Shown in pieces: positions 3,501 to 51,820 of a stretch of 64,000 bases of DNA. The position numbers were made by a program, and so were the translations under genes. Every line of letters begins with the position of its first letter. The first letter of the stretch is position 1. The notes beneath the pieces were generated by a model. That model saw only the letters and a program-made list of their open reading frames with translations. It was not told the DNA's origin and did no database searches. The DNA comes from Ascidia mentula. Lineage: Eukaryota; Chordata; Ascidiacea; Phlebobranchia; Ascidiidae. The stretch is from positions 19,762,266-19,826,265 of the forward strand of contig OX387197.1 of NCBI GenBank assembly GCA_947561715.1. Reading direction: 5' to 3'.

Positions 3501-3716
3501 AGATCGAAGTAGCAAGGTATTTACAGTCCTATAAGCCACTGCATGGTTTGCAGCTGCCTACCCTGTTCCCGTTGTCAAACATATTCAATCCTCCATCGAT
3601 GATACTTCGTAATTCCGGGTCATCGTAGGTGTAGTTATGAAAGTCCGATATCTGGCTAGTAATTTCGTTTGTATGTGCGGCAATGGAATGCAGAGCATTA
3701 GTTATGTTGAAGGAAT
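512..3716 (-). CDS. Partial gene made of two copies of an unknown ~230-residue module
   Basis: Minus-strand gene whose product I do not recognise. Upstream module exons (transcript order): 3716-3562, 3341-3286, 3229-3136, 3077-2922, 2672-2542, 2472-2390. Downstream module: 1892-1741, 1627-1569, 1511-1406, 1035-880, 823-699, 588-512. Each exon matches one exon of the module repeated six times in the plus-strand gene at 9421-30181, with the same splice phases. Conserved signatures are DGGxDMYDxGN (exon A), VYNRTY (B), FxSxAxHPF (C), an invariant Cys in VCEIFF or TCEVFF (D) and FGYTLLS (E). Linker exons between the modules (2160-1893) were not resolved: a Ser/Thr-rich open frame exists there, but its phase does not join cleanly. 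No signal-peptide exon was found upstream and the 3' end lies left of the window. It is probably a secreted or surface protein, inferred only from its paralogy with gene 1. Confidence 0.8.
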
Positions 3717-8638: not shown

Positions 8639-8705
8639 ATGAAGCTCCTTTTGAGCTTTATTGGTGTTTTACTGTTTTGTGTTAGAAAAGCAACACAACA
8701 ATCCG
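8639..8705 (+). CDS. Gene 1 exon 1: signal peptide
   Basis: Encodes MKLLLSFIGVLLFCVRKATQ and three further residues, ending in phase 1 at a GTAAGT donor. The ATG at 8639 gives a compact hydrophobic leader. The open frame extends upstream to an ATG at 8555, but that start would bury the hydrophobic stretch behind 28 mostly polar residues, so 8639 is preferred. The first exons of genes 2 and 3 are the same kind (21-22 codons, phase 1). Confidence 0.75.
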
Positions 8706-11700
8706 GTAAGTTTTTGATATTTTTGTTGAGTCACGTAGGCTACTATTTATGGAATGGAACAAGAAACATTTTATAAATGCTATAACGATGTAAAATAAAA
8801 CATATCGTATCACCAAAAGTAGAAAAAGCAGGGATTCTAAAACATTTTAGGCTTACGGTACACTTGGATCCTCTTAATTCGTTTACGGCACACCAAACTT
8901 TTATTTCAAGTTATAAAACGAAACAACAGGTGGCCCCGGTTATGTAAACGAATTGCTTTGTTTCGGAAGGTGGGTTTGGTAAAACATTTTACAACTTTCG
9001 CGGACAGAGTTTGAGAAACCCTGTTCTAAAGGTTACCGACCTCTTGCCTATAAAGTAACTGATACAGTTACAAGGTTACTGACTCAATGCAGTTAACCTA
9101 TGTTGTAGCTATCACGTGGTTGTCAAATTCTAAATTAAAATAATTGCCAAGTGGCGTAAAGCATTAAAAAGACAAACATAACACTCCGATGATCAGACGT
9201 AACAAATACGATAAATTGACAAGTGCATACTGTACAGCATAACAGCAACAAAGCCAAACAATCAAGTATATTTTCCATTGTTAAATCAAAAAAACGTGTA
9301 AAAAGCGCCTCCGAGGAGCTAAAAAAATGGCACAATTGGTGAAATGAGATGTAACACTATAGGGATTAAAACTATTTCGTCTAAGGAAACAAAGCTCTGA
9401 ATATTGCGTATTGGTTCCAGTAACGCAAAAAACAGGAGATTACCTCCAGAGGCTCCGGGCGTCCAACTTGACTAAAGATTTGAATAACTTTTACCCCTGC
9501 AAGTATGATGATTGGCCTCCCCCCGGTAACGAAATTAGGGATGGAGGGTGGAATATGTATGACTTTGGAAACGAAGTGAGTACTTTAAACTTTAATCTAA
9601 AAGCCTAATTTTTGATAATTTATTTCAGGTATATTTCACTGCGGACCGAAGTAGTATATGGGCTGAGTACAATCGAACATACAAGTACGCTCTGATTGTA
9701 AAGGAAGAAATCTAAACTTTTTTGTTATTAAAAGTCTATTTAAGTTAGTTTTGCTTGATGTATTGTAATGTGCTACAGTGGTTCAGACTTCTCGTTTTCA
9801 ACGCTTGCTGTGCACCCGTTTGTTGCGTTTTATTACATCAACGCAAATGATAGTGATAGGAGCTACTCAATTCAGGTAAAATGTGGTAATTACTATACGT
9901 AATAGATCATGTGGAAAATCAACTTACATTCTTTTATTGTCGCCCCATCGCCTTTAAGCGTTTTGTGTGGTTTTGCTGGGACTGACACATACCACGAAAT
10001 TACTTTTTTAAAGTTGTTCCCAGCAGATTCTTTTAAAACCCCTGGTTTCTAATATGTGAAGCGACTGTTTATTCTGAGAAATAAAGTAATACAACATTTT
10101 GTCATTTAAAATTTTTATGTGTTTTACACATGTAAAACCGGTGCTATGAAAAAAAGCAATTATAGATTTTTTTTTTAGGTTTCATCAAATTTGGGTGCGA
10201 GAGGCCGTGGTATTTTCCAAGAGTTTTTTGGTGATGTTGAAGACGATGATTATGAACTGCATTTTAGAGGTGTTCAAGTTTTCCATGCCTCTGTACCCAG
10301 TGTTTGTGAAGTGTATTTCTATATTTCTAAAGTAAGTGATGCTTCTTGTTGTTGCAGCACAAAAAGTAAAAACAGATTTATTGTTCAATTACAAAATTCA
10401 TTTGGAAATTGTAACGTACTCACGAAGTGTTTCTAGGACTAACCTGGACTATTGTAAAATCATCTAAGACAACTAATCGTAAAAATATCGCCCTTATGAC
10501 ATCATTACTTTAAACACCAAAAACAAACAAACATAAAACAAAAGTAAACATTTTAAAGATTGAAATTAACATTGATTATACTTGTTGACGTAACGTTCAA
10601 CAAGAGCAGCTTTGTCGTCCTTTTGTTTGTATACCTTTGTGTGACCTCACCCCACATTGCTCTCTGCAGCCACGCCACCTTGTGAAAAACGATGTTTTTT
10701 GTTTAGCCGAGATAATTGTCGCCGCATGGTGTGCATGTTTCGGCAAGTATGTGGTGTTGTTAAACTTGGTAAAAGTCGCGGGTATTGTCAAGTAAAACTT
10801 TCAATGCCGGGTACTCTATTACGTCACAAGGCCAATTACTGTTTATGCATCAACATAAATCGGGCCGCTTTCGCTCGCGTGTCGCATAACGTCCATGCAG
10901 CATAGGCGCCAAGTTTTCAGAATCACCGGGGAAACCGGTCCCATCGTGACGTCAAAACTAATGTTAACCGTAATTGGAGGGGGTTATAAATTTCGGGGAA
11001 AATTCCTCTATTTATCGCTGTTATATGACAGTAAATTGGGGGAAAAACAAATATGCATGCGGTAGCCCGGTAAGCCTCTGCACATTTTCGCAATGTGTTT
11101 AAAATCGGAACAAATTTTAGTTTTGTTCTCCAGCGAAAAGAATGGTTTACATTGAGAAAATCGCACGTGACGCGGGTCACTTTACCGACATCCCGGTTAT
11201 TCACAGCTTTAATTTCCATACGTACCAAGCGCGTCAAAGTGTATGACTTTCTTACAATTGTCGCAGCGCAACATTGTAATTGTGACTAAATAACTACAAA
11301 TTTGCGGGCCCCCGTACATAAAGCCACCGACGTCCAGCGTGGTTGTTGTCTGCTGTGTTGTCCTGACTAGCTTTATCACTGGTATCGCTGGAAATCTACG
11401 GTAATCTTGTTGGTTGAAGTTAACTGACGTGTCTTTTCCAGACATTTCGGTCGGTTTGCACCAAGTAGAGAACATTTCTTCGTTTTTCAATGATTTGCCA
11501 GTTAGCCATTTTGGTGCAGACGAGTAGTTGCGTGCATACACAAGCGGACCTATCACTTGCTTCATTTCTATGTTGATCTCTGCTGTAATGTGGTGCGAAA
11601 CGTTATCTCTGCAGTAAGATCATCTTCTGATGTCTACACTCCCGCACAAATATTTTTGCATTCCCCGCTTAAATATTTGCACGAAGCGTTCTGCTTCTCC

Positions 11701-14700
11701 GTTCGAAGCGTAGTGGAATGGGGGTGATGTCAGGACAAATATCCAACTTGACTTCTTTAGATTAGTTTTAAGTCTGAAACAGGAAACCCGCTTGTAATGT
11801 GATACGATAAAATTTTGAGGAAAAAGCACTTGCTGTTTATAAACATTTGACTTATTAAGGGGTGCGGATAATGTATTGGTTAGACTTTGTAATACAAGAA
11901 CTCCTTGATGTTCAAAAATACCAACAAATGTGGTTTGCAGAGAGAAGCCACTTACAACTTTTCTTTTACGTCACCATTTGGAAACACCTTTAGCATGTAC
12001 AATGAAGCTATTTTAAGCGGGAAAGTTAATGACGTCGTGTTTGGTTACATCCTACTGTCAACGTAGGTGGTGTTTGATTGCTAGGTTCCGAGCAAACGCT
12101 ACAATGTGTACTTTTCGTTTTAGCTTACCCCCGGGTCGTGAAATTTATCAATGCGACCTTGAAAAGACGATGCTAAGGACGTTGCAAGCTTTTACTGGAA
12201 AAAGTAAGATGACATAGTTTGTATTTAATTTAAGTTTTGCTGGAAAACGATGCTAAGGATGTTGCAAACTTTTACTGGTCACGCCACGTAGTCTATGACA
12301 TAACTGTTGATTTTTGTTTGGTTATAATGCTCTAATTCCTGAAAAATCTGTCAATGGAAAAATACAGTAAACAAACACCCGGGCGCAAATGTAAAACCGG
12401 CAATGCTGTGCATCCATTTGTGATGCTTCGATGAGTTGCGAAAAATTATGGTCATTTTGGATGTGCCCCTAAAATGCATAAGTGAAATATATAGTAATAC
12501 ACCATCCACTTAATCATTTTTACATTTATTTTTGTATGTGATTAGATGCAACCCAGACCACACAAACCGCGCAAGCATTACGTCCTGAGGGTATGAGCGT
12601 CTGATACATATGTTTCTTGTTACTCCATGTGTTCATATTTTCTTGTGTAGTAACAAATACTGAGAATGTTTTTAGTCATTTCAGTTAATCATGGTCGTGC
12701 TTTAGTTGTCAGAGAAACAGAAGTTATTTTGACGCGGCTTAAATCTTTGGATTTGACAACGCGCGTTACAAATTTTTACCGATATCAGTACGATGTGACA
12801 TCTTATGACTCGATTAAAGGCGGTGGCGAAGACATGTTTGATGAAGGAAACGTTGTAAGTGTATTACCAGTTAAGCAAATGTTTTTGGAATATAAATTTT
12901 AAGCTGTGTGTTTAAAACATCAGGTACGTGCATCAGCGAATCGAAACTGCTTCATGGGCGAATACAACGTTACTTACAAGTAAGTTTTAATCAAAGCGAT
13001 TCAAAGCAGTACTGTTCTATTAAACTATTAAAGTTGCCAGGAAAACATATTTACCGGTATGCAACAAAACTAATTCAAAGAAATCACACTTGTCATCTCT
13101 TTAGTCAACCTGACTACACGTTCTCCACCATTGCAATTCACCCGTTTACTGCATTTTTCTACATCAATGCCACCAACGACCGAAGCACAGAATACACCAT
13201 AAAGGTAACCGATTTGCCAACATCAAACTGCGCAAACTAAATTTACTGTCATATTTTTTTAATATTTAACATTTTTGCAACCTATGCGAAACCGCAAAAG
13301 TACAAAGCAAAAGCATTTTTTTTATTCATATACATTCCCGTTAGTGAACAGAGGTTTAACAAGACCAAACGCATCGTAAAGTTTAATTGACAGATCTTAG
13401 CGCTTTGTGGCGTCAGTGGAAACTATTCAACACAAACAAAACATAAGAAACGGCCATTTAGAAATCGTTAGATGCAAACATTTTTTGCTTGCTACTTAAA
13501 GTATTTTAGAACCTCAGGATTTTTTTAAATTGTGTGGATAAAAACAATAAATTATATTACCATAGACTTTATAACCAACGTTTTTGAAATTTGCATATAG
13601 TATCTCCACTGCGCTTTTTACCATATACATAAAACTGCTGGGAACTCCTTTATTCCATCAAGGGCATTTACCAAAACAATATTTCTATTGTAAAAGGTCG
13701 CATCCATATTGGTATCAAACGGGCCGTCTAGTGAATTTTCTGGATCAACTTCCTACAATGGCTCTGTGTTATATTTCAAAGGAATCCAATATTTTGAACG
13801 ATTTGCTCCAACAGTGTGCAAGGTCTATTTTTACATTGCCCAGGTATGCAAATAGGCTGCACGGGAGGCCAATCATAGTTGCTGTTCGCCTTAAATCTAA
13901 TAAAACAAAGCTTTGAGGAGAAAGTAAAATTGTTCAACATGAGATACCATTTCTAAAGGAAAATCTAAAACTAAGAAACGGACATTTAACATACAAAGTT
14001 ATTACTAGGATTAACCTAGGTTATTGCACAATCGTCCAAGCCTCCAAGGCATCTAATCGTGAGAATATAAACATTTTTACCCTTGGGTATCATGAGTATA
14101 TATATGTATGTATGTATGTGTGTGTTAGAACAATTCTGCCTTGAAGTTCGAACTTAACGCTACAGAGAACGGACTGACTGAAACAACACTTTCTGGAATT
14201 CCCATAAACGTCGTATATGGATACACGTTGTTGTCCTCGTAAGTTATTGAATACTTTGTCTTTTTTTTAGACCTACCAAAAAACGTTATGTGCTACATGG
14301 AAAAATTGTTCCATACCAGCATGGTGTATCAGAAATATTAGAGTTTAGTGTAATTGGTTTAGAAGTTTGTTGTAGTCTTTTGAGGCAACGTTTTTTTCGA
14401 ACATTCGACGAAACAGTTGTGGTTAACCACTACGGTTTTGAGTCAAGGTAATAATTCTGTATGCCTTTATCTATTCCTAATAAATGATATTTTTTCGAAA
14501 CATCATGCACAGTATATTTTGTAATTCCAAGCTTTTAAAAACAGTAACGTTTTTTCGTTCGAACATACGACTTTTACTAGGGCCGCGGGTTTGATGTATG
14601 CTAATCTGCTCCAAGCATTTTCAGTGTAACGGCAGAATTTTGCGCGCCTGACACCGCACTGTGTAGATTGCAATCTATTTACTTTCTCGACACACGCGTG

Positions 14701-17700
14701 TAATTAGCACTAGGGATGCACCAAAAGTTCGGTTTTCCGAATTTATTCGGCCGACGCAACTTTTGCCGAATATTCGGTTTCGGCCTAATATAAAAATAGC
14801 TGTTTCGGTGCATCACTATTTAACACACACTCAAGATCACGTGGTGCACATAGCTGATCAAGGCACACGGAAAACAGGTTACTGTCAAAAAAACATGGAT
14901 TTATCGCCCCAGTCTTTAATGTTACACTGATACAAAGCGCCAATAAAGAATATGCTCACCGGAGTTTTGAGACAGATAGAAAACGTCATTAAAACCGAAC
15001 GACAGATTCAGATTTGAGCAAAAACCTCAATAACTAAGTTTGCATGGCGGAAAGAAATGCCGTTCTATAGCATTATGACGTGTGGGCCGAACTGGCATTG
15101 TGTTGAAACGCAATTACATACGGCGTGACGCAGTACTATGCATGAGTGATTTTCGATGTTACATTCTCCTCCCTAAATGTGTGCTTACACCTCAAACACA
15201 TTTACGAATTAACATTAAAATCACGAAACAACGAAGTAATGAAAGCAAAACATCCGCGCTGACGGCAAGCAAGCTCCATATATAATGTGCCGCGTTTGTG
15301 AACGGCAAACAAGATCAGCACAGCGTCCATGATTTATGTTTATCAGTTTAGGATCACGTGCACGGCAACTCCGGGTCAGTTTGACGAATTTGTGGTTTGA
15401 ATTCGTCCGATGCTTATTCGTTTGTCGTGCTCGCCTCGCAAAGCAAGCATAATTTTGCAAGCCGCCATTTGTGCGTGGAGTGCGTTTTCACTTCGACCTG
15501 ACAGACAACATCGTGGCCTTCAAGAGCGCACGCAGAACCGTCCAATCTCCCAACGACATCAGGGTTGTGTCTCATCTACAATCATCACCACATCTACGGA
15601 TTAAAAGTTTCGTTGTCGGTCAGGCCACTTCTGACGCAAGGCAATGGTAGGCATATATTCCCGCAACCATCTTCTCAAAAATTCATCGGCAAGGTATTGA
15701 ATGTGTTTCCACCGCCTACACGTAAAGCTATTCGGCGTTAAAGGCCTGGAATTTAAAATGCTTTCCACTTCTATGATTAAGTTTTGCAGCATGTCGGCAT
15801 TGATCGTTGGGTTCTTTGTAAGCGTCTCTCTCACTACTCTTCAATATGTAAAGCAGCAGGACAATTAAAGTTCCACTTAATTTCTTGTCGTTTGAAGTAC
15901 GATTGCAAACTGTGCTCCCGGAGTCCTTGCAGGGCTTCTCGTCGGGCCCTTTCAGCACCTACAAAGTTCGTACCATTATCGCTGTATATTTCTTTTGGTC
16001 GACCTCTTCTTCTAATAAATCGACGCAACGCGTTAATAACTTGTCCGTAATTAAGTCGGACGACACCTTATTGTGTCAACTTAGGTAAATGGCGGCTCGT
16101 CGGCGAATGGCATGTCAGCCATTTATTGTTGTCAGCGTCGACCCTTTCAGACTTTCCGACCTAAGACATAATGTTGCCCACTGGAGAGTAGCACCGACGT
16201 TGATATCTCCAATTCCTCATTCTTTAACTCACACACAATCAATTTGCCAGTGGTTGCAGACTGCAGGAACGACTTGAATTGTAGCAGCCGTGCGACCGAT
16301 TTCTTTATTTTATAAGAAGATGAATAGTTCATCAGACGATCGAATGTCTCTGACTGTGTACAAACGTTAACGACATTTCTTTTCCTCTCAGCTGGCTGGA
16401 CTGCTGGGACAGCTGGGTCTTTACTTGGGGTAGGCCATTAATATTCTTTCTGCCGGAGAAACTGCGGACCTGTCAGTCATCGATAGCTGATAAGCTTGCG
16501 TACCGACAAACCACGCGAAACATCGTCTATTATAAACCAACGTGCCTCCAATGTTCAGGGTTTATATGTCGATGAACTTGTATACCACAACGTTTACTCT
16601 GGTTGCATATGCTCTGCCGGACGGCGCACGTGTCCGAACAACACACAGGCATTCTGTTATCAAATTTGCGTCTGAGCTATTTGTCAATTTGCGTCTGCCA
16701 AATAAAAACGAGCATTGGGTTTACCATTAACGTTTACAAGTCGAGGTATGACGGGATTCCATATCCTTAAGTAGGCGCATCACGGGCTTCGCCACGGAGC
16801 CGATTGTTGCCTGCTTGAAGTTGAAGTTTGGAGTGTTGGCAGTTGGGAAACCAACGTCGCCATTCATCAACATCATCTTCTGGCAGCTCGTTATCTTGTC
16901 CTGATTTCTGTCAAACTATTTCCTGTTGCAGCACCTTACCCAACATACGCCCCTTCAAGGGGACATCCAAATTTACATCAGTTACCGATTTTGCTTTTCC
17001 CGTCTCGGGAATTTAATACAAGACGTTTTGAACAAGTCACATAGCATCGCGACTATACCAACAGCGCGCTCGACTGTATCAGCTAAAGTCAAACAGTCGT
17101 AAACATCAAAACCATCACGAACGATGTCCTCGACGTCCTTGTCAAGTCTGGCACCGACTTATTCGGCGGTTTCGCGCAAGCAAAATGTCGCACAGCTAGG
17201 CGAGGATGTAGCGGATTTTTTGATTTCTTCATTTTCATTTAATCAATGGCAAAACGCTTTTGGCGGACCTTCTCCTGCAGATGGATTGACTTGTCTCGGT
17301 CTTCCGTTTGTCGGAAGTAGATACCCTAACTTTTTGTCATTAATACTTTTGTCGGATCCCTGGTTGAGAAACGCGTACGCCTTGACATCTCGATCATTGG
17401 CGCGAATTTTCACCGGAATATTCGAAGTACGATTAATGACAGTTTTTTTATCGCATTGCATCTGGGGTTCGCTGAACGGAGTTCTATGGTAGTTTTCCTA
17501 TGAAGGCACGTATGTCCTCAAACGTACACGATTTGGCATATCTTCATGCAGCAGTGTGTGGTGCGCAAGGGTGCAGCCCTGACAGCACTTGCACTTGGCC
17601 GGGTACAAAACCTCGATGCGTGTCGATAACCCAAACAGCTTAAGCACATAAATTTCCCTCTTAGGAACTCCATTCTTTGAACATTGGACTTTTTACCTAA

Positions 17701-20700
17701 TGCATCACGTGATTCTGTTTCTATATCGGGACAGGCGACGAACTTGATTTTGTTGTGTCAGTGGCGCGGGTAACATTTTTTTCACCGAGTTAACCTGCTC
17801 GTTTTTTTGCTTCAATCTTTTGGGACACACAACTGACCAGGTAAAGTGTTTACTGCGGCAGATTCTTCCACAACGAATTAAACGAGATCTGCAATATATA
17901 CTTCCTGCTAGATTTCCTTACAATGTTCGCAACTCGGCGCCCCAAAGCCTTTGTGACGGTAAATGACCCTTGATCAACTGATTTACGAAAGCTCTAATCG
18001 CGCTTACTGAAGTTCTCGTAAACAAAAAATAATGTTGTTTGCGTAAACAGAACAATGTTCAACCAGGGACCTCGCCTTTCCTTTGCATTGATTGACGAGC
18101 TATGTTAGTCGCATATCGTCACTTCGCGTCTTGTATTCGAGATTGGACACGAAGTAGCGTATACAAACATCGAACAATCCGTAGATTTTCCCAAGAACGC
18201 CATCGGCATACTCATGCCTTATCCAACTGCCTTTACGATGCATGGTGGTGTACAGCTGAACTTTCTTGCATTTCCATGTCCGGTTGAATTCAACTGGGGA
18301 AAGAACGTTGTTACGTGGTGTTTCCCCGAGCTACCTGGAACAGAAGATGTCATCGGAACTTCTTCGACATATATGACCGAGAAATTCACTTCTATTTCTG
18401 GATTCAGGCTATGGATCGGCCCTTGTCCGACGACGGAAGATCACTGGGTTCTTCAATAAATATGTTAGTCCTTGCATCAGCAACCTGGACATCGTACTTT
18501 GACTTCAACTTCCGCCTTTCTGCTTCCAAAGTAAAGTTTTCCAGATCCGCTTTCTGTTGCACAGCTTCTCTTATAAGTTCCTCCTTTCTTTGTCCTTCTA
18601 CTAGATAATCTTCTATCTTTACGAACGTGATTTGTGGCAAGAAGCCACTATTACCCTGTACTGTAGACTTACCTGTGCAATTCTGTACGGAAACTCGTTT
18701 TCGCATACAGCGCGATTCTCTAAGTCTTCACAAGAGGCAATATACACACCGTACATATTTTGCATTGTTTCCATGCCTGTTTGGTCCATGTTTAACGTTT
18801 TGGGCCAAAAACGGGTCGTGTTTTCATGTCGCATACGAATTCAAGCGTAACAATTTTTGGCCCTTCACTGGTCGTGTCGCGGAAGTGAGAAAATTCATAT
18901 CTTAATCTTCAAGAAATTAACTTCTTGGATGCTTTGTCCCATAATATCCGAACGACAGATTCAGATTGCTCATAAAAATTGAAATTATTTATTAACATTC
19001 AAAACTTTAATTGTAGCACAATAAACTTGCCACTTAGGAGCACGCTACACGTGGCACAAACCTCAAGTTTGCCAGCATTACAGAAAGAATGCAGCTTTAT
19101 AGCATTTTGAGGTCACATAGGCCAAATTGGCATTGTGTTTAAATGTAATTGCGTACGGTGTGACTCAGTACTATGCATGAGTGAGTTTTGATGTTACATT
19201 CAGGAAGATGTTGTGTGCAGCAGATTTCTTTGCAGTGCACCTTGTAAGATAGGAGTACCAAGATAAACAGGATGGGGATATTTTGTGTAGGGTCAATTAG
19301 GCGATTGGCCAATTTGATGTTAAGATTCCAACTGCTCGTAATACAAACGATGCCCCGAAAGTGCATTAATTAGTTTATTTTCTGTCCTGCAGGCTCGCTA
19401 CTTACCCTAATCAGCTTTTTGGTTAATCATAGCGCAAGGTTGAAAACACGTGATGCTTTTTATATCTGCACTTAACAATTTTCGCATTTTCTATCTTCAA
19501 CAAACAATGTTACGTTAACTGTCCAACTTCCAATTGCATTTAAAACAGTGTTGATCCGGGACGAGCAATTCCTGACTCCGAAATTGAGGCTACTATGTTT
19601 GACATGCTGACTGCAGTGACAGAAGGTAAACCATGTCCCATGTAATTTGTCTTACTAAAAAACCTGCAATTGAACGTTTGTATTTCATTCAAAGCTATCG
19701 TACTTTTACTTGACAGGAAAAATACACTCTGAATCGATTCCAGAAAACCCACAAAGTAAGGATTATATTCTATGCATTTAAACTATTAAAAAAATATTAC
19801 TCAAATCTGTTTTTTGTTGTTGAAGTGAACTCACGTGTTTGTAAACTGGATTTCGTAACCTAAAATGAAAATGTCATGCATTTTTCCAAACACTCTTTCA
19901 AAAATATTATCTTTCTCTTTTTAGTAAACCAGGAAACTGTAGCTCTTCTAGATCGTTTAGCGTCTTCGAACTTGACAAGAAATTTTATTGACTTTCATCG
20001 ATATCCTTATGACGATAACACTTTTCCTATGAACAAAATATTAGATGGAGGGGACGACATGTTTGACGAAGGAAACTATGTAGGAACAGTTAAACGAACT
20101 TGGATTAGGCTATTAACATTAATATCCGAAATTAAAAAGCCAAAGCTAGAATGCTGTTCATCATAATGCTGGTAAACGTTTCGAACTCATACAGAGTTCA
20201 TCATCAGTAATCAAATGAGCAGCTTGCAAAAAGCGTCATTTGAGTACTGATGATGAACCCTGTATGATTTCGACACGTTTACCAGCATTATGATGAACAG
20301 CATTCTAGCTTTGGCTTTTTTATTTCGACTACTTAACTCCAGATACTTTCCACCCAAACATTAATATCATTTATTGCATGCAGGTTTACTTTTCTGTAAA
20401 TGGAAATGGAAGGTTTGCTGAATATAACCATACGTATAGGTAAATTTAATTCGTAAAACTGATAAAAAGGAGTAAAAAAATACTTTGGTTTGGTTAAAAG
20501 CGGTTTGGTTTGGTTTTAAGCGAGTAAAACGTAAATGTGTTGTAGTGATTTGGACTACTCATTTTCAACACTTGCTGCATATCCATTTACCGGACTTTTC
20601 CATTCAAACAAAACTGCGAAGAAGAATAATATATTTTCAATTGAGGTAAATTGAGTGTGTTAATTGTCATTTATCTGTGTAAATTAAAAAATGTCCCTAA

Positions 20701-23700
20701 ATTATGAGAAAAAAAACTCATCGCCAAAGGGAAATGGTTTCGTTTGTTTCATATTAACATCAAAGATTATAATTATGGTGCGTAGTAATTCATAAAATAT
20801 TGATGTGTGTTTTTTTTTCAGAAAAGGTTCCAAAAAGTACTTAAATTCCAATTAGCTAAAACTATGCTCATATAATATAAATGTAAGAGCTCTTAGACCA
20901 CTTGTTGTTTGTTACCATCAAGGTGTGGTCAAGAATAAATACCGGGAAAGCACAGACATTTGAAGGTTCAGTGTCGTGTAGTGGGTACATGCTGTTATAC
21001 AAAGGAATTCAGTATTTTGAGGGCCCCGGACCAACTGTGTGCAAAGTGTTTTTTCGTGTATCACTACAGGTGAGGAAATGCTGTAGTATAGACTAGTAAA
21101 TAAAAAGCTTCCATTGGATTAAACTGACTTGACTAATTTTCTTAATAACAAGTCCTTGCACATTTGGTAAATGGTTTACAGCAAAACAAATTTTATCTTT
21201 GCAAGTAAAAGAAAGATGTTATCGGTTTGCTTGTAATGTTATACTTTTTGAGTTTGAAAGGTGCGCGCTTGATCTACTATTGACCGATTTGTTTTTCAGG
21301 ATGAAAATGATCTTGCATTTACATTCGATGAGGAATACTCTCGCCCGTTCAGTAAGAGCACTGCGTGTCTCATTGAAAACACCACATATGTTGTATTTGG
21401 TTACACATTGCTTTCAAAGTAGGTACCACATTTAGCATAGTATTTTAAATCCATTTACAAATACAAACATTAAAGTAATCTAACCGATAGAACTAAACTG
21501 TGGTTACGACACATATATCTTGCTATTATAACTGAAATTAGCGTGTCCCTTACCCGGCTAACGCCCAGGCTACTCCGCACAGACGGCATATCGCGACGAC
21601 CTAGAGTCACACGACCAAGAAATGCTAATAAGTATAAAAGAGTAAAACGGTAAAAGTACGAATAAAACAATGTTTGTTCCAAAAACAAAAAGGACATTCC
21701 ACTGCACATAGCGTTTGACAACAATTCCTTGTCGCGCGCTACCACAAAAAACAATGTTTTCTACTCGCCACCACCAGAGAACTGACCCGGCTTATCCATC
21801 ATTCATTCCGCCGCCAGCACGTTAACCAATTATTGCATTTGCCACGCAAGCATGATCGCTCGGGCGTATAAAATCAAGTAAAAATGCGAAATAGTCACAA
21901 ATATATTATAAAAGGTGGGTGCGAAAAAAATTAACAAAGAAAAACATGTTAACGTGAAGGTGAAGTCAAAATACAAAAAGAAATAAAGCGTGTGAATAAC
22001 AAAACGACACTATTTTTCAATTTTTCCTAGGTGGGCCCCAGGTTTTGCTGCTACACAGAATCAACTCGATTCTACGATGCTAGACATGTTGTCTGTTGTA
22101 ATAAACGGTAAAAATAGTCATAACATTTATAATATGAAAGCATTTATTGCTTTTAGATAATTATATTTTTAAATGTTGTCACTTCTTTTAAATTTGCTTT
22201 GCAGATACATGTTTCTCCAAAAGGCCATCAAACCCACGCAGTAAGTGGCGTTTAATTACCCGTTAATATGATAGTCTGGTACTGGCCAGATTTAATTTTG
22301 ACATAAAATTCTGACTTTTTTGGGGGGCTTACAGGCGGCGATGGCTTCCAAGGAGAAATAAACAACATCAACTATATTAAAGTGTCAGAATTCAGCTCGT
22401 TTTATCACGTAATTATAATTTAAAGCATGTTTAATTTTCAGTTAATACGGAAATGCAAGTTATTTTGGAAAGATTAAATTCCTCTGCTTTGATCGGAAAC
22501 ATAATAGACTTTCATCAATATCGTTATGATGACAACATTTATCCAATAAACAAGATATTAGATGGAGGAAACGACATGTTTGACGACGGAAATTACGTAA
22601 GACCAACATCAGCATTTAACAAAAGTCGATAATTGTTTTGCATTTTGTTTGTCAGGTATGCTACTTCGCAAATGGAGAAGGTGGTTTAGTTGAATATAAT
22701 AAGACATACAAGTAAGTGCAGCGTTGTTATATTTATTAAGATTAGGAATTTTGTAACAGGTAAACAAAAACGTAAACTTGGACAGAAGAATTACGAAACT
22801 AGAATGTTGGTAAAAAATCTGACAATTTAACTAATTTGTTTGTCTTTGTCTTTATATTTTACCTTTTGTGCAGTGGCGCGGACTATGTATTTTCCACACT
22901 AGCTGTTCATCCATTTATCGGTTTGCTGTACACGAACACAACGGATTTAAAAATGCGAAATTATAAGATTGAGGTAGAGTAAAATGGTGTGATTGTGTGC
23001 CAGATTAACTAAACCAGCGTGGTCCAACTGCAAGTCCACTTTTTTATCTAATTTTCGTTGGCCTGCGAATTATAACCTGATTTGGAAACGCAACTTTGTA
23101 CGAATCAGGGCCACAACCAAAATTCCCGTGGACACGACCGTTTTCGTGTATTTCGTTTCGTAATTCTAAGATTTGTTATGGTAACACTGGCCCGCGGAAT
23201 AAACTAACGATTTGTTATGGTCCGCGACAAAATTTGGTTGGACCACACTGAACTAAATTGAAGACTTCCATTTTGTTTTCCAACAAATTCAAATACTCTT
23301 AGGTTGTAAACGACGCAGCATTAAATTTTGTTTTGTTAAACAGGTTCGATCACACTTCCGTCATTATTATTCAACCTATTCAAGTACCTTCAGGGGTTCC
23401 GTATCATACGAAGACTACATATTGAGTTTTGAAGGAACTCAATATTTTTACTATAACCCATCAACGTGCAAAGTATTTTTCTACGTTTCACAGAAAGTAA
23501 ATTTGCATGTTTGTTATAATAAATTTTTTAACAACTGACAATCGCAAATCCTTTTAAAAAATATCTTCATTTACATAACATTTCAGATTTATTGCCTGAC
23601 TGCTTTTATGCATGTGATGCCGCATGTGATTTTTTTTCATTCAGCAATAACTCAATACACAAAAAATGTTAGGCAATATCCAAATATAACAGTTGAAAAA

Positions 23701-26700
23701 TCAGTAGTTTAAACCTTACTGGATCAGTGAACCAAGCTACCCTGGCAGGCTGTCGATCGATTACCGTATGTATAGTTGCTGAATATAAACAAACAAACAA
23801 ACAAACTGTTTCTATCCAAATATACCACAAATTAGTAGTAATATGCAAACATATTTTTGTGTTTTCCGAATTCATGCTAATAAATCACATTACGCACCTC
23901 ATTATTTCTGTATTTTTAAATGCTGTGTTGCGTTTTTGTTGTTTAGAGTGAAAATAGTTTGAAGTTTACTTTTACGGAACGATACAGTTACGGATATCTA
24001 AGCCAAAGCATCGCAAACCTGGAAGGAAACACCACGTTCGCAGTTTTGGGTTACACTTTACTCTCAACGTAGGTTGTTTTGGCTTTATTATCACAATATT
24101 ATCGAATAATATTACCTAGAGCACTTAACAACGTGGAATGTTAAAGTGCTTGTGAAACGTAACCCGCAAACATGATTTTGTGTATTTTCGACCAAGGTTT
24201 AAAATGATTTTTTTACACAGGTTGTTTCCAGGACGGACTTTGTCACAACCTCAACTAGAAGTTACGATGCTCCGGATACTTAACGCAGTAATAAACGGTA
24301 TAAACTATCTTTACAATTTGCAATATATATCAAACTCAACAGACATAACCCTCTTGTTTGTTACGTGCAAAAACTCCAGTGAAAGTCGCAGTCGTAGTGT
24401 AGTAGATAGACAGGAATATAAACAGAAAAATATCTTCAATAACTACTTCTTTTTTTGAAATATTTATTATTTTTTTTCAATCAATTAAACACATGCAAGG
24501 CAATGTTCTTAAAACTAGCTGTCACTAAACGTACTACAAAGTTTGTGCTCCTTTATATACAAATATTTTTAGAAAGTTTTAGACACCGATCGTGTACTTA
24601 TGTACTTGTTTCTTTTTGTTTTTAAATACTTGCAGACAAAGCATTTTAAAGGAATTTTTCCTTAAACGCAGGTTACGTTCCTGCTGAACAACCGCAAAAG
24701 CCAGAAAGTAAGTAAATTAGTAATGGCTTCAATTTAAGAAAACCAGGGTTCGAAGGTTTTACCTCATGATATGTAGTTCAAAATGTTCCAAGATGTTTCA
24801 ATTTTTCGAAATGAATTTTTTCCTTGGTGAAAAATTACTTTTATGCAGAATGAAGTAACTATAACTGTCACACACTAGGTATCGCATTATTCAAATCATG
24901 AAAAACTATGCGGTGAAGTGCCCGATCCTTATATAATACGATGAAAACCTGATCGGGATTCTTGACCAAAAAAAAAATTCACCTAAACGTGATAAGTATT
25001 ACATTACTGTAGGTGGTTATTTGCGTTTAGTTGCAATGTGACACGGTCAAAATATGATTAAAATAATAACCCTTTATACTTTTCAAAAATTGTGTGTGTT
25101 CTTGTTTTCCTAATAAAACATGCCAGGGGATACATTTTACACATAAATACTTTTACGGTTTTGGAAAATTGTGTTTTTGTTTGTAAGCTGAAGCTGCATA
25201 ATTTTTCAGAGAATTAAAATATTTCTCATGTGTTTAGTTGCACAAAAGATGGATATTATTTTGAAAAGACTCGGTACTTTGAACGTAACGAAGCAAGTGC
25301 CAGATTTTTATTATTATGTATATGATGATTATTCCGAGCCAATCAACAACATACGTGACGGTGGAGACGACATGTACGACTACGGAAACTTTGTGAGATC
25401 AATATATATGTAACACTGTGAAGAGATTAGAATTAATTAAACGTTTTTATTGATATATTAAAGGTATGCTTTGAAAGTGAAGGTTACGGGGGATGTGTGG
25501 AGTACAATCAAAGCTACATGTGGGTTTGCCGTCAACTCCTATAACATTACACCAAATAACTTATATAAGAACGCTACAAAATATAGGCAATAACTGTTAA
25601 CTTTATAGCACAATTATTTATGTTGGCAGTGGAGAAAGTTATGCATTCTCGTCGCTTGCGGTTCATCCATTTAGTGCAGTCTTCTACATTAACGCCAGTG
25701 ACCAGACAAACAGAACATACTCTATGCAGGTTGAACAAAATACATCCAATTTTAGAAAACATTAAAATCATTTCTGCAACTATTTTTTAATGTAAATGGT
25801 TATTTCAGTAATTTAATTAAGAAATAATTAACTAATCGTTGCAATTCACTTGTTTTTGGTTTAAACTTGGGCTTCCCAAAGTAGGATCTATGGGTCCATA
25901 GTTACATATCGAGGGGTCCATACATTATTAAATAATCATGCATTCAGTGATGTTTGATAAAGGTTTGAATAAAAAAGGTTTGCTCAGGTGGCCCATGGAC
26001 CCAAACAATTTTGTTATGCATTTAAAGGTTATATCGAAACCGGGTTCTTACCGAAGAAAAAAATTGTTTTTTGGAAATGTATCACTGGCGAACTACGTAG
26101 CCTCATTTAAAGGCGTTCAATACTTCCAGGGATACGCCCCATCTGTATGTGAAGTCTTTTACCACATATCAAAGGTAATCTTTTTACTTGCTTTCGAAAG
26201 TCATTTGCAAAATCCTTCTTTTTGTCCATAAATCTTACCTAAATTACCTTTCTTTCATTAATTTTATATTTTGTTTTCCTAAATTGTTTTTTTTGTAGTC
26301 GTACGTTATTGACAATGCTAATATAACAAGTGTTCTTTAGGATCTAAAAGGAAATACGTTTGAACTAACCGAGCCATACTGGAGGTATGATCAAAGTAAA
26401 GTTGTCCTTTCCGGTATTGTGAGAGACGAAGTATTTGGATACACTTTGCTTTCAACGTAAGTTATCGAATTCCACTTTTTTCGCGATTTACCATATACTG
26501 CACCAAACGCAACTCACTTTTGGTGCACGTGCATATAAATGTACCAGCGCCATTGTATAATTATATGGTGGTATGAGTATACGACTGCGTTGTGTAGACT
26601 GGAATAACAGATTTGTATGCAAGTTTAATATTTGTGTTTTAACCTTTGCCAAGCTCTTAGGTAGGTTCAGTTATGCTTTGACTCAAAAAGCGTTTATATG

Positions 26701-29700
26701 GACCACAACGAATGTAAAATAAAAATATACTTTGTGATTGGATTGTTAATTATAGAAGTTTGTTTGACAACATAAGTTTATCCATTAAAGTTGAGGCATA
26801 TAACCCCCAGGTAATTTTTTTAGCTGGGAACGCGGCAGAGAAATCACACAAACCCAACTAGAAAAGACAGTGTCCGAAATTTTACTTCTCATAACTAACG
26901 GTATGTTTTAACTGCCTAAAGTAGTTCATTTAAGATGTTAACAATGACGAAAACAATAAATTGTTACTGATGCTGCCAGGCATATTTATTGCTTAATACT
27001 GCTCTTCTGGCAAACTTTATTGTATTTACGTTTCTCGACGTTTCGGCTATTATGCAACAGCCTTCATCAGGAGGAAGTATCTAAGTCTACCACAGTGGAC
27101 GATTTGAGGCACATAAACAGAAACGCTAAAAAGAAAGAAGAAGTGAAACAACGAAAAAGCGATAAGGGCGAACACACCTGCACAGTATACTTATCACTAA
27201 CCGCACGGTTTTATCACGGTTTTTGAAGTGCGTAATGTCTATCGGCATAATTTTTCTCTAGCAAGTGTCGATACACCGGTGGAAACAGAGTTTGTTTCTT
27301 GTCATTGAGTGATGACGCATGCGTATTGATGTTTAACGACTCTAAAAACATCCTCTTGTGCCTGCGGGTGTAGTTGTACTACCATATGTTTCTGAACTTT
27401 CGGAAACTTTAAAACGCCTGCTTGGCGACTTTAATATTCAGGTTTTTGAACGTCCGGTCGTCACCCTACGTTCCTTAATATCGCACCCAAAAGACCGCAT
27501 GCACGACAAGCTCGACACGAGGGGTGTGGTCTACAGTATTCCCTGCGGTGGTTGCAGTGGCGTATACATTGGTGAAACTGGCCGTGCGCTAAGAACAAGA
27601 TTAAAAGAGCACCAAAGGGACGTGAGAAACCATGAGGAAAAAACGGCTCTTTCGCAACATGTGGCCGAATCAGGACATGCGGTGGACTTTACAAAAACGA
27701 TCATTTTTTGGAACGCGAGTCCGATAGGCACAAGAGGATGTTTTTAGAGTCGTTAAACATCAATACGCATGCGTCATCACTCAATGACAAGAAACAAACT
27801 CTGTTTCCACCGGTGTATCGACACTTGCTAGAGAAAAATTATGCCGATAGACATTACGCACTTCAAAAACCGTGATAAAACCGTGCGGTTAGTGATAAGT
27901 ATACTGTGCAGGTGTGTTCGCCCTTATCGCTTTTTCGTTGTTTCACTTCTTCTTTCTTTTTAGCGTTTCTGTTTATGTGCCTCAAATCGTCCATTGTGGT
28001 AGACTTAGATACTTCCTCCTGATGAAGGCTGTTGCATAATAGCCGAAACGTCGAGAAACGTAAATACAATAAAGTTTGCCAGAAGAGCAGTATTAAGCGA
28101 CGAAAACAATATTTAAAAAATTTTTTTTTTACTCTGGAAGTGAACGATTAATAATTCGTTTTTCTTTGCAGGTACAACTTCTCCGCTCCAACCACCCAAT
28201 GCAGACAGTAAGACCGTCCAGATTTACGTTTTTTGTTAATTGTTTACATAGTTTGTTTTTATAAAAAATCAGTTTCTGAGGTAACAGAGCCAATATTGAA
28301 TGGAATAAAGTCGTTAAATTTGACACGACACGTGTTAGATTTCTACAAATATAATTATGATGATCGCTATTATCCATTTACCCATATTGAATGGAGTTCA
28401 CTGTACCGGGGAGGAAACTACGTTAGTTCATCCTACATTAGCGCATGTATACAAACCATTATTATGTTATGTTTTTTATTAAAAAAGGTATATTATGATG
28501 CGAATGGGGAAAGAGCTCTGGCCGAATATAACCGAACTTACAAGTACGTGTAATAGCCGAGCAAATACAACACTCAATGAAACAGTAAGTATTAAACTCC
28601 GTGAATAACCTTTGTCTTTAACAGTGGCTCCTGTTATTCTTTTTCGGCGTTTGCTGGTTATCCATTTACGGCTTTTTTCTACATTGGTCCAAATGCTCCC
28701 ACAAGTGGAAATTATTCCATTCAGGTAATATTTTTAACTAGCTAGATAAACAGGGCGACATAGCCTTATTTTACGTGTACCTTTGATGATCTAACATGAT
28801 TGTGATACATCCAAGGTGCTTTCAAGAATCTATTATTATTGGTATCACAACGAGCCCGAATTCTTGGAGGGCACGGTAACAAACGAGCGTTACGTGCTTT
28901 ACTTTAAAGGAATGCAAATTTGGGGCCCCAGTAGGCCAAGTATTTGTGAGATATTCTTCTATATTGCACAAGTAAGTAGTTTGAAAAATCATAGGTTTAA
29001 AAGTGAACTTTGAGGTCATTTCAAAAAAAACTATGTGCTAAATGTCTCGTAAATGTACTGATTGTAGTTTGCATAGTCCAAATGTTTTTTGTATATGACA
29101 GAAAATGACTGTTTTTTTACAGAATGGCAGCGGCCTTGTGTTTAATCAGTCTTTATCGTGGTTATACAGTGGAGAATATCAACATGAGGCTTTTCTGTCA
29201 GGAAACGCCAAGAATGCTGTGCTCGGTTACACCTTGTTATCCACGTTTGTGAAAACTAATTATTGTGGTTTTAACTTACGTTTACTTTTTGCAAAAGCGG
29301 TAAAACTTGAGATAACATTAAATATTTCCAGATCCGCATGTGTTAATAGTTGAAACTATCATGAGGTTTTCAGGCTTTGCAGCCCAGGCAATGCAGCCTA
29401 GCTGGATTAGCCACTTTTTCCTGACTGCAAAGCCTGAAAACCTCATGATCGCGATACGTAAGCTGTGATCGCCAAGCAAGGACCTGCGCAGTGGGGCGAT
29501 CCTGCCTATCATGCCATTGCATGAAATATTACTGCGTTAGTTGAAACTATTTAGCATCTCAATTGCGTTTACAAGTCCTGGCCACGAGTTGCTTGCTTGT
29601 CGTAATGGTTAGAAATGCGCTAACCGTCGGGAAGGGTTTTGGCATCATGTCTTTGCTTGCACCTTTTTTGAAGAAAAATACATGTATAATTAGCCGCGAG

Positions 29701-32700
29701 GATAAACGGAAGTTTACAGATTTTTTCAAGCCATCTTTAAGTATAATGACGTGGTTTTGTAATGCTAATGGAAATGCATATTGCACAAGCGAAATATAGC
29801 AGCTGCTGTACAACTGAATGACCAGATTGAAATTCGCTAGCGGTGGTCCAGTAGTTGGGGAGTATTTAATATGACAATTAAATCTATTTAAATGTTTTAG
29901 GTATATTCCTCGAGATATAACAAGCGACGAGCTGGAAGCTGTGATGCTTGAATTGCTTGAAAGTATTTCCAGCAATGGTATGTCTACAAGCGAATTGACT
30001 TAGCTTTGACTTATTTAGTTTTTATTGTACGTTTGCTAAATGCAAAACGTTTAGACTTGTTGGTGACAATATTCATCACAAGCATTGACATTGCGCGATG
30101 TTTGCCAGTAAGTTTCACAGTAAATGAGTAAATGCTCATTTTTTTCAGGATTGAACAGAAAAGGAAATGTTTTGACCAGAGGTAAGAAACCCATAAAGTT
30201 AGATTATGTGTATGTAACAACGTTACTACATTTTCGAATTAACTGCGTATTTTTATAAGAAGTTGTCATTGTTACAGTTGAAGGATTTCCGGGATCTCAC
30301 GTGATTTTCTTGCGCATCACTAAAATAAGTGTCATCAACGCCACTCGTACCTACTCAGTAGATGTTGCGGGTCATGGGCAATCTTGGTCAATTACATTTT
30401 TTGACGTCGATTCTCTGCTTATCACGGGTCTGATTCCGGAAGTGACCTACACACTTGAGGTTTCCATATTAGACGACGGACTGTTGGTATCATCCTTGGA
30501 ACTAAGCATTACAACCAGTAAATTCACTTTGTACTTTAACTATGAAATGGTCAATGACTGTTGTCGACACACCTGGATCGATTTAAAAGTGTAAAGTTAT
30601 GTTTTCACTGTAGTGTTTACAAAAAACTTGTTCAGTAGGAAACAAAACATAAAATTCCAAACAAAACTTTCATGTTCCTTTTAGAAGTTCGTAAAGCTAC
30701 CACATTTTATTTTAAATTAAGATAGCTGAACTTGGTAATACTAAAAATAATTGTAAGTCAATGATTAATAATTTTAAATGTAGCAAAATTCTGCACCCTT
30801 TCATGCACGAATGGACACTGCATTGCTTTCTCTTCAATAAAGAAGGAATGTGTTTGCAATCGTGGGTACGAACCTCTGCCCAACCAACCCAATGTTTGTT
30901 TGGACACAAACGAATGCCAACAAACTCCTTCACCCTGTCCGGTTAACTCAACATGTTCAAACACTGATGGATCGTTTGTTTGCCGTTGTCGCAGCGGCCT
31001 TCAGTTGTTTGGAAATCAATGCGTAGGTAGGTACACATTTATAACAGAACTTCGTTTATCGGACAACAAAAAATTTGCCTGTACAAAAACTAAAAAGTTT
31101 ACAACAATTTTTGTTTTTAAATTACAGGCTCCGACATATGTGACCAACACCCGTGTCAAAATAACGGCACTTGTCTTTCTATTGGCGGAACCTTTTCCTG
31201 CAATTGTTCCGAATACTTTTTTGGCTCCAGATGTGAATATTACGCAAGTCCGTGCTTGAACGATCCATGCAGAAATGGGGGAACCTGCGTCGATTTGTTT
31301 GGAAAATATATGTGCAATTGTCCCTCCAATTATAAAGGTTTCCTATTCAAAATAAGTTATCATTTGTAGTCATAACTGCGCCTTATTGTCATGGATGGCA
31401 AAAGGTACCGAAACTTGCCAGAAGTTTGTTGGCCTACATTTGATATTGGTAATAATATGACCCTATGTAACCAATCTAAACTTACAGGGTCAATGTGCGA
31501 AGAAGACGTGGACGAGTGTCAACTCGAGACATATCAATGTGATGAGAATTCGAAATGTGAAAACACAGTGGGGAGCTATCAATGCAAATGCACCAAGGGA
31601 TACAGGTTTGATTTGTGCGAATCCGGAGCACTGCTTGTTTGAAAAACTTAATATCAAATTTAAACGAATTAATAAGAGCTGCAGACAGGTATACACACTG
31701 TTTCGACCTGAAGGTCTCATCAGTGCAGCTGGTGACCGTGGCACATGCTAGCTGGTAGACTAGACCTTGCAGGTCGAAACAGTGTGTACACCTGTCTGCA
31801 GCTCTCATTGACTATTATGGCTCTTTTGCGCATATAAACGAATTAGTTCTTCAAATGAGATCGTCCCTGTTACTATATTGCAGAGGGGATGGACTTAAAA
31901 GGTGCTACTTAGTACGATTGCTTCCGTACGGAGAAAGCGAAAATGATGAATTGCTAAAGATCGGAAACGACGTTGCATCACCAACAATCACGTAAGCATT
32001 GTTTCAAAAGCTGTTTAAATATGTTGAGACTCTAGTATCTTAAGTAATGAAACATTTTAGGGCATCCTTCAAGATTCCTTTCGCAAATAAGAAATTTAAA
32101 GACATGCATGTGACATCAAACGGTCTCATATCCCTGGGTACAGCTTCTTGGTTTGTCAGTTATCTCAACCGTCCACCACACAATGGGTTTAACTTTTACG
32201 ACATTGCTCTGATTGCTGCATTTTGGGACGACTTTCATCCAAGTGAAAAAAATAAGGGACGTGTGTATTACCAGGTATAATTTTTGAAACTCTGCAACAG
32301 CTTATAAACAACAAAATCAAAGCAGGAATGTACCATTAACTATACTGTATTGTACTACATGCTGGTAAATAAGTTTGCAAAACAGCCATGAAGGAGAACG
32401 TTTTATGATAATATTTTATAGTGCGTTATCACAACAATTCTGCAGAATGTGTCTATATTTTAAAAAGGTTTGAACAAATTTATTTGTTTTTTGTATTTAG
32501 GTGTATGATAAGGGTGGAGTGACGCTCACCAACAAAAGCGAATTAGTAATGCTTGAAGTTGCACGTCGCGTTAACAAACACTTCCAGCGCAATGACTTTG
32601 AACCACTATTTGTGTTAAAAGTCACTTGGAGTGAAGTTGTGATGTACAATGAATTTTACAACCGCAATTATGTAAGTAAATTTTAACAATCTCTCAAGAT

Positions 32701-50300: not shown

Positions 50301-51820
50301 GTTTTAAAGATTGCCCTTTAATTCCACAAAGGTTATTTTCATTATTTAAAATGGTGTTATGGTTTCGCATCAAGTTTAACGGAACAGAAAACCGTAAAGT
50401 TTCAACGAGTAATTTGAGTTTTTTTTGGTATCGTCATTGCCCAAGTAAATAGTAGTTGGAAATTCAAACCTCAACGTATTGTTGGCGTGATAAACACTGC
50501 CAAGGCATTAACAAAAACTTCAACAACCGCAAGTTAAATATTTGCTATTCTTTTATCTCCCTCGCGGGTGGTTTGGAAATTTTCTACCAGTGTTTGACTT
50601 GGAAGTTCGTGTCACGACTTTATTTGTCCACGATTTTAGGGATATCAATTCAACTTGGCTATTATTCCTGAGGAAGAAGGCAAGTATTCACATCGTAATG
50701 TTAAACCGGATGTTTAACAATATTTTTGAAAATCCCGATTGTGAAGTGATAAGGCAGTACTTCACTTTAAACGGCCAATTTGGTGATTAATATCTGTAAA
50801 TAAAGTGATTGAGCAATTGGGCAACTGAGCGAAGCATGACGAAAAGTAAACTTTACTACATTCCGGTTTAATATGTCAACGTACAAGCGTGCGTCAATGT
50901 AATCCAGGAGACTCAATCCAAACCGTTTTATTAGTCTGCTTGTAAATTTAGGTACAGTGCAAATAAGTAGCCAAAGGAATATTCGCTATCTGTTGATATC
51001 GGATGTATGTTTTATTTTATTTGAGATAACTTTGAAATAAGCTAAGGCAAGAATTCCTTCATATTTGCCCTATATTAATGTTATTACTAATTTCAACTAA
51101 GTTCTTCTTTTCACGATGCCTCCATTCACGTAAAATAGAACCAAATAAGACACAAATTAAGTTCCATTCTCTTGAATATTGTTGAATTGTGTGTATAATA
51201 TTGAACTAAAACTTTTGAAATACCGCAATGAAATTTATTTCGTGTGCCTTGTTCATGAATCAAAATCACCGCGTTATTGTCGCCAAATACTGAGCAAACT
51301 TGGTAGTCACGTAAATGCGATTTACGAGATTTCTTGACAAAAGTTTTGTCAAACATTGGCATTCTTTAGTGTCGTTGAACCCCCTACCGATGTTGTAAAC
51401 CTAGCAGGGATAATGACAGGGCGTAAGGTAAAGCTACTATTATGATTGGGCTTGCACTAACACGTTTAACCATAGGCCTATTATCAAACAATTGCGCAAG
51501 AATCAGAAACGAGAGCGTTTATCGCTTCTAGCAAAATCTTTTTCTTCCCAATACCCTACCCAGCACTTTACGCTTTACATCGTTTTGAGATGGTGTTAAA
51601 GGTTGACGCCTACAGAGACATCGCTTCAAAGTTTGTGCACTTAAGTACGCAACAGATGTAATACAGGCAGCGATTCTTGATTGTGGATTATCATTTAATA
51701 TTCAAGTTGCAAACAATGGATTTTTCCCATTACGTCACTTGTAGTAGTGCTAGCGAGATAATCGTACATATTTTCAGGGAAAATAAGAGTCTTTTTTTGA
51801 TCTGAAAAGATTAAAGCAAA

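Follow-up and report, generated by a model that had tools for sequence, protein, structure and literature searches.

The stretch of DNA analysed here (the window) comprises 64,000 nucleotides of the ascidian Ascidia mentula (assembly GCA_947561715.1, contig OX387197.1, positions 19,762,266 to 19,826,265 of the forward strand). Its plus strand carries, between positions 9421 and 30181, six consecutive copies of a coding module, which we rebuilt exon by exon from splice sites and reading frame. The module exons are bounded by GT-AG sites and their phases (in-out) are common to the copies: 1-0 for exon A, 0-2 for B, 2-0 for C, 0-0 for E, 0-2 for F, 2-1 for G and 1-1 for H. When joined, copies 1 to 6 measure 708, 660, 690, 699, 687 and 693 nt, each a multiple of three, and encode 235, 219, 229, 232, 228 and 230 amino acids; together they make up 4137 nt with no stop. 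A sequence-only reading of this DNA had proposed such an array of six copies with identical splice phases, and the reconstruction bears this out. Seven exons per copy, as proposed, are present in five of the six copies and not in copy 2, where G is doubtful and H was not found. The proposed length of 229–236 residues holds for copies 1, 3, 4 and 6, and not for copies 2 (219) and 5 (228). The total frame of 10,590 nt could not be reproduced and presumably covers the rest of the gene. The module is thus confirmed as a real, intact and repeated coding unit.

Copy 1 (9421..12590) consists of exons 9421-9575, 9629-9684, 9779-9875, 10179-10331, 11941-12062, 12124-12203 and 12546-12590, and is matched by a hidden Markov model (HMM) of microbial relatives, A4, presented below, at an E value of 9.2e-15. 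A second, partial copy of the end of exon G (KTMLRMLQTFTG) lies directly after exon G of this copy, at 12244-12279 on the plus strand. Copy 2 (12685..14347; A4 E value 4.3e-12) has exons 12685-12854, 12924-12979, 13105-13204, 13697-13843 and 14129-14238. The start of its exon A is ambiguous (12685 or 12706), its G exon (14271-14347) is proposed from length and splice sites only, an H exon was sought in this copy and none was found, and retroelement-like frames lie downstream. Copy 3 (19925..22240; 7.7e-11) comprises exons 19925-20079, 20384-20439, 20546-20645, 20923-21069, 21300-21418, 22031-22107 and 22205-22240. It is followed by copy 4 (22442..24707; 4.9e-11), with exons 22442-22596, 22656-22711, 22874-22973, 23344-23496, 23947-24068, 24221-24297 and 24672-24707, and by copy 5 (25238..28207; 7.9e-13), with exons 25238-25392, 25464-25519, 25630-25729, 26028-26174, 26341-26456, 26824-26900 and 28172-28207. 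Copy 6 (28273..30181; 1.7e-9) ends the array with exons 28273-28421, 28488-28543, 28625-28724, 28816-28971, 29123-29244, 29901-29977 and 30149-30181.

The count of eight copies in the window was correct, since exon A also matches the minus strand at 3705-3565 and 1875-1744. Exons A, C, E and F were located in both of these copies (2544..3705 and 701..1875, the latter with DGGNDMYDGGN and GADGRG), and exons B and G were not found. Both belong to an array of at least six modules that extends beyond the window. In the 200 kb around the window (C1:19752001-19952000) we count 46 modules in six arrays, in order of 6 (minus strand), 6 (the window gene), 6, 10, 11 and 7 modules; the first and the last may be longer, as they reach close to the limits of this stretch. 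Automatic splicing through exons A, B, C, E, F and G, with phases imposed on the search and exon H not sought, succeeded for 31 of the 46 modules and gave no stop. Stop-free exons with splice sites at these phases number 46 for A, 43 for B, 45 for C, 45 for E, 42 for F and 36 for G. Outside this cluster, exon A matches are located at C1:23.03-23.12 Mb (16), C1:18.5 Mb (2), C2:11.97-12.36 Mb (C2:11966000-12356000; 27, on both strands and widely spread) and C2:5.16-5.21 Mb (C2:5164000-5207000; 17, about 2 kb apart), and on contigs C67 (3), C70 (5) and C72 (1). The C2 clusters are known from exon A matches alone. For the genome searched (195.8 Mb, 79 contigs) the total, including the 46 of the cluster, is about 117 modules, a hand count among the matches listed in which the weakest match has an E value of 0.05 and only the best candidates were scored, so that the true number may be higher. 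A further locus on C67, L045, picked by pattern match, contains no module exon.

Of the motifs noticed in the sequence-only reading, the [ST]-x-C cysteine occurs in every window copy, and the DGG motif is recognisable in five of them and degenerate in copy 6. Over the 46-module cluster, 42 of the 45 E exons have the cysteine, all 42 F exons have G[YFH].L[LI]S and all 43 B exons have Y[ND].[TSI][YF]. Motifs like these are also found among other invertebrates, cnidarians included.

That no known domain fits the module, as the sequence-only reading had stated, is upheld by the searches against Pfam, NCBIfam, PHROGs and PDB sequences, which gave no credible match; a strong profile match to a described domain, the result that the same reading had named as evidence against it, did not turn up in the libraries searched. 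Five of the six window copies matched no Pfam family, and the sixth had one match below the cut-off. With 13 diverse modules, Pfam returned three families and NCBIfam one, each in a single one of the 13 members with an E value of 0.0035 or weaker (the cut-offs of three of these four families were not shown), and PHROGs returned none. Nothing credible was found in PDB sequences with the profile of the six window copies (E values of 0.22 and 0.34) or with that of the 13 modules. The weak matches to YqeY, FTHFS, DUF3845, flgK_1st_1 and pyridox_lacton were rejected because each occurs in a single member and they are mutually discordant. The module is thus without a described domain in the libraries searched. 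It is not peculiar to the window gene, however, given its roughly 117 copies in the genome and its membership of an unnamed microbial family.

The evidence for this family comes from profile searches. The profile of the six window copies alone retrieved nothing at E<=0.01 from 5.8 billion proteins. When the profile was built from 13 modules, of which the minus-strand array supplied five, it retrieved 22 proteins at the same threshold; one of these comes from Guillardia theta and another carries a phage tail-collar domain. The relatives were found because the more conserved minus-strand modules had been added. A second profile, made from 14 of the 22 proteins, gave 339 matches at E<=1e-5 (the best 120 of the 339 are listed). 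In GTDB genomes, 37 of the 59 loci matching the pattern DGGNDMY encode relatives, among them members of Bacteroidota, Verrucomicrobiota, Planctomycetota, Marinimicrobia and Acidobacteriota and the cyanobacterium Microseira; in viral contigs this is the case for six of 18 pattern matches. No match was obtained by tblastn of P0003 and P0020 against 50,697 phage records, and a search of viral contigs for the context of P0004 found none. The module aligns to the microbial profile in hhalign with a probability of 99.7 (E value 1e-25, 191 columns). Profile-profile comparison of all 46 modules with the 69-row microbial alignment gives 99.5 (1.2e-22), and with bacteria alone 97.8 (7e-13), the microbial rows having been gathered with the module profile and exact shared words. 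Fairer tests of homology are the shuffled or reversed controls and the bacterial-only HMM. The microbial HMM (A4) matches 40 of the 46 modules at E<1e-3, including all six window copies, and none of 341 such controls; the bacterial-only HMM matches 26 of the 46 and again no control. In the reverse search, the module profile matched 37 of 39 bacterial domains. By these comparisons, the module belongs, in divergent form, to an unnamed family of domains present in bacteria, phages and protists. The matches to P0011, P0013 and P0021, on unnamed contigs, seem by eye to end just past the position where exon A ends, which suggests that this intron is common to other eukaryotes. In a tree of 36 rows with 13 of the 39 bacterial domains, the nine ascidian modules used join P0002 (96/92). 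Because the alignment is loose and the branches are long, we claim neither a direction nor a horizontal transfer.

The microbial domain itself seems to be without a Pfam model: in nine long bacterial and viral proteins compared with Pfam at E<=1e-3 or 1e-4, no best stretch spans the motif. A match of the microbial profile to a fusion of the CFA/I fimbrial subunit in PDB (E value 7e-4 over 40 positions, no stretch passing alone) was not used. Three motif strings are absent from the papers searched, and no paper on the module was found, as judged from titles and the beginnings of abstracts. In the phage collar protein P0006 the domain is C-terminal to a partial phage tail collar; one viral-contig protein combines it with LamG, and a second with a sub-threshold collagen-like stretch. 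In bacterial proteins it is paired with HYR, FG-GAP, subtilase or immunoglobulin (Ig)-like domains, and five of the seven bacterial proteins scanned carry a sorting tail of the type IX secretion system (T9SS; L056, L058, L059, L075 and L066, the last by the NCBIfam cut-off only). Short phage and microbial matches have no recognised neighbour domain. Such neighbours, where recognised, are indicative of surface, secreted or fibre-like proteins.

Six polar residues, D96, D100, D103, N106, D172 and D205 (P0003 numbering), do not vary among the 69 microbial sequences aligned in A4; D172 and D205 are the acidic residues of GAD and DP. One acidic motif, GAD, is kept in eight of the 46 cluster modules: five of these are among the six modules of the minus-strand array, and the other three each open a different one of the five plus-strand arrays. 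None of the 34 other modules with an E exon has it. All eight GAD modules keep D1, D5 and D8 of the DGG motif, versus three of the 38 others, which are window copies 3, 4 and 5 (one of these 38 has no modelled E exon). Similarly, an aspartate precedes the P-[ST]-x-C motif in six of the eight GAD modules versus none of 35 others, three rows without a match being dropped (by eye they have N, K or no E exon). Of the window copies, none of the five matched has this aspartate, and the sixth has N by eye. Since the GAD and DP residues are not found in the window copies, their family membership rests on the profile match. The coupling of the motifs has Fisher p values of 6e-7 and 5e-6, which ignore the kinship of the modules. 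Joint loss of the motifs would fit a single site, plausibly one for Ca2+ or ligand binding.

The modules are under purifying selection on average, as measured by pairwise averages. The pooled ratio of nonsynonymous to synonymous differences (pN/pS) is 0.33 for 12 close module pairs between and within the 10- and 11-copy arrays, three of these pairs being within one triplet; single-pair substitution ratios (dN/dS) range from 0.15 to 0.53, and the highest pN/pS by exon is 0.41, for E. The 11-module array (C1:19895653-19916542) arose recently by copying of the 10-module array at 19856077 and contains one more module, gained by duplication (19907920/19910148). In the tree of the 46 modules, the last modules of the window, third, fourth and fifth arrays group together (99/90), as do the penultimate modules of the window, fourth and fifth arrays (96/96). 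Another group (95/82) unites second modules from four arrays (window, fourth, fifth and sixth) with the third modules of two of these (fourth and fifth). The modules that open the fourth, fifth and sixth arrays adjoin the minus-strand modules with weaker support, the first module of the window gene branches next after them, and 17 modules from the middle of the arrays fall into a group with poor resolution. As many modules group by array position, several positions are likely older than the gene duplications, which the tree supports except for one array.

The array appears to be part of a larger gene. A probable first coding exon (8639..8705, plus strand) encodes, by eye, a signal peptide beginning MKLLLSFIGVLLFC, and its phase-1 donor (CCG/GTAAGT) fits exon A of copy 1. 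After copy 6, the gene body (30278..38550, plus strand; joining inferred) contains an Fn3-like exon, EGF repeats, NIDO, C8-3_MUC4 and EGF_CA repeats, as found by Pfam on hand-joined exons: NIDO (PF06119) at 3.7e-27, also found by genome search as one match at 33065-33355, EGF_CA at 1.4e-50, and C8-3_MUC4 at 8.7e-6 (25.4 bits for a cut-off of 25). The Fn3-like exon was seen by eye and is not reported by Pfam. The putative gene end (44145..48145, plus strand) adds EGF_CA (4.6e-26), a SEA-like exon seen by eye, fn3 (4.8e-8), EGF and, by eye at 48012-48145, a transmembrane helix and a short tail ending in VVMRYKRNQTSEKYRDI and a stop. A home-made gene-finder chain was set aside; it over-predicted and picked exons inside transposon-like frames. 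Signal peptide, six modules and NIDO/EGF body are, we infer, joined in one MUC4-like surface protein. A NIDO match follows all five plus-strand arrays of the cluster and both arrays at 23.03-23.12 Mb. A second, paralogous NIDO gene in the window (51815-58030, plus strand) has a signal peptide followed by an Fn3-like exon (by eye) and carries no module array; this region and the 31.5-36.7 kb region share ungapped direct repeats of 71-93% identity. Given this gene without modules and the phase 1 at both ends of the array, the array can be present or absent, and could be gained or lost without a frameshift.

Several other elements lie in or near the window gene. Retroelement-like frames (integrase-like by eye) occupy 15600-18730 on the minus strand, in the intron between copies 2 and 3. 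A perfect inverted repeat with arms of 373 nt set 362 nt apart lies at 26991-28098, overlapped by a GIY-YIG-like frame (by eye). An open frame of 806 codons at 39026-41443 (plus strand), with a zinc-finger-like start and transposase-like by eye, is probably located in an intron of the window gene. Elsewhere in the assembly, cox1 on contig C79 is open only with TGA read as Trp and has AGA/AGG at conserved glycine positions; this code, with AGR as Gly, is that of ascidian mitochondria.

We consider it fairly probable that the array-bearing protein presents an extracellular adhesion or recognition domain on a MUC4-like membrane protein, with a partly lost ancestral site. The module would be an extracellular domain of about 210-220 residues, without a name in the libraries searched; profile comparison shows its homology to a domain that bacteria carry in surface or secreted proteins, phages in fibre-like proteins and protists in some of their proteins. 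The predicted order of the protein is signal peptide, six modules, Fn3-like, EGF, NIDO, MUC4-type C8-3, EGF, fn3, EGF, transmembrane helix and tail. The array most probably projects from the cell surface and mediates adhesion or recognition by summed weak contacts. The few modules with all three acidic motifs (DGG.DMYD, GAD, DPS) probably keep the site at which the ancestral domain bound its partner, perhaps Ca2+ or a glycan; in the remaining ones this site would be partly lost, and these may be spacers or have other specificities. An ancestral gene seems to have acquired much of the array before duplications of the whole gene multiplied it.

A number of observations weigh against this proposal. 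The bacterial-only HMM misses 20 of the 46 modules at E<1e-3, window copy 6 included, and the way in which the microbial rows were gathered inflates both the scores of profile-profile comparison and the apparent constancy of the DGG motif. None of the six window copies has GAD, so that the ancestral site may be dead in the window gene itself. The sole module without GAD in the minus-strand array is the N-terminal one, and the coupling of the motifs may reflect common descent alone. The third array (19826.6 kb) groups by position at its last module only, not at modules 1 to 5. As to the MUC4-like body, Pfam reports neither AMOP nor VWD in the hand-joined chain at E<=0.01, although WGDPH and Cys-rich stretches are visible there by eye; a whole-genome AMOP search gave no match, but its controls were equally silent. 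Finally, the exon-by-exon search lists no NIDO match near the minus-strand array, nor near the clusters on C2, C67, C70, C72 and C1:18.5 Mb, so that this body is not general to the family.

The loss of GAD from all six window copies would also fit a structural matrix rod, in which the modules take the place of mucin tandem repeats and, without specific ligands, form a stiff glycosylated spacer in a protein of mucus, tunic or egg coat. The MUC4-like body agrees with such a role, as does the excess of N-glycosylation sequons (2.17 per 100 amino acids versus 1.39 in shuffles), which counts for the preferred explanation as well. However, a plain spacer would not require that many modules be old and grouped by position, and the phage and bacterial relatives occur in fibre-like and surface proteins; a mere rod is therefore possible but somewhat improbable. 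The size of this clustered paralogous family, with its arrays of 6 to 11 modules, the recent duplication of one whole array and the fact that the host is an ascidian bring to mind polymorphic self/nonself receptors acting in allorecognition, gamete self-sterility or pathogen recognition. Diversifying selection between paralogues is not seen in the pairwise averages (pooled pN/pS of 0.33, no exon above 0.41), and no Ig or sushi domain is among the Pfam matches of the hand-joined chain at E<=0.01, unlike in Botryllus fuhc and fester, which makes this role improbable. Pseudogenes, an assembly artefact or chance open frames could be suspected from the retroelement-like frames in introns and from copy 2 with no clear G and H exons. 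They can hardly be reconciled with 31 of 46 modules fully spliced without a stop, with purifying selection, with phases common to the copies and with homology to microbial domains. The sequence-only reading was right that these are not pseudogenes, by virtue of selection and conserved splicing, but its argument from a multiple of three is weak. Adhesion or recognition on a MUC4-like membrane protein thus remains our preferred explanation.

A bolder extension, which we regard as unlikely, would see here an undescribed extracellular binding domain of bacteria, phages, protists and animals, expanded to about 100 copies in this ascidian, whose clustered paralogous receptors, bearing position-specific arrays, would together serve to recognise self, gametes or microbes. 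If the arrays are indeed recognition receptors, they would constitute a large and testable gene family near the vertebrate root. A widespread domain for which the libraries searched contain no model could be named and made searchable, and the named domain would connect phage fibre-like, bacterial type IX secreted and animal surface-protein families.

Three known systems may be compared with the window gene. The first is the unnamed microbial DGGNDMYDGGN-type domain (P0003, P0020, P0006 and bacterial loci L053-L089), which matches the module profile over nearly its full length and shares its succession of motifs: DGG.DMYD.GN, (GAD), (D)P[ST].C, LLS and a C-terminal segment. Unlike this domain, the ascidian copies have their coding sequence spread over six exons and a linker exon, stand in tandem arrays and are mostly without the acidic residues of GAD and DP. 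Botryllus fuhc and fester are, like the window gene, ascidian genes in clusters for surface proteins. According to PMC12065747, their products carry Ig plus EGF or sushi domains, whereas Ig and sushi are absent from the Pfam matches of the window gene. With MUC4-type membrane mucins, in the layout given in PMC5354666, the window gene has in common NIDO, a MUC4-type C8-3 domain and EGF, as well as, by eye, the helix and short tail. It differs from MUC4 in having no AMOP or VWD reported by Pfam, many more EGF domains together with fn3, and a module array N-terminal to the NIDO part.

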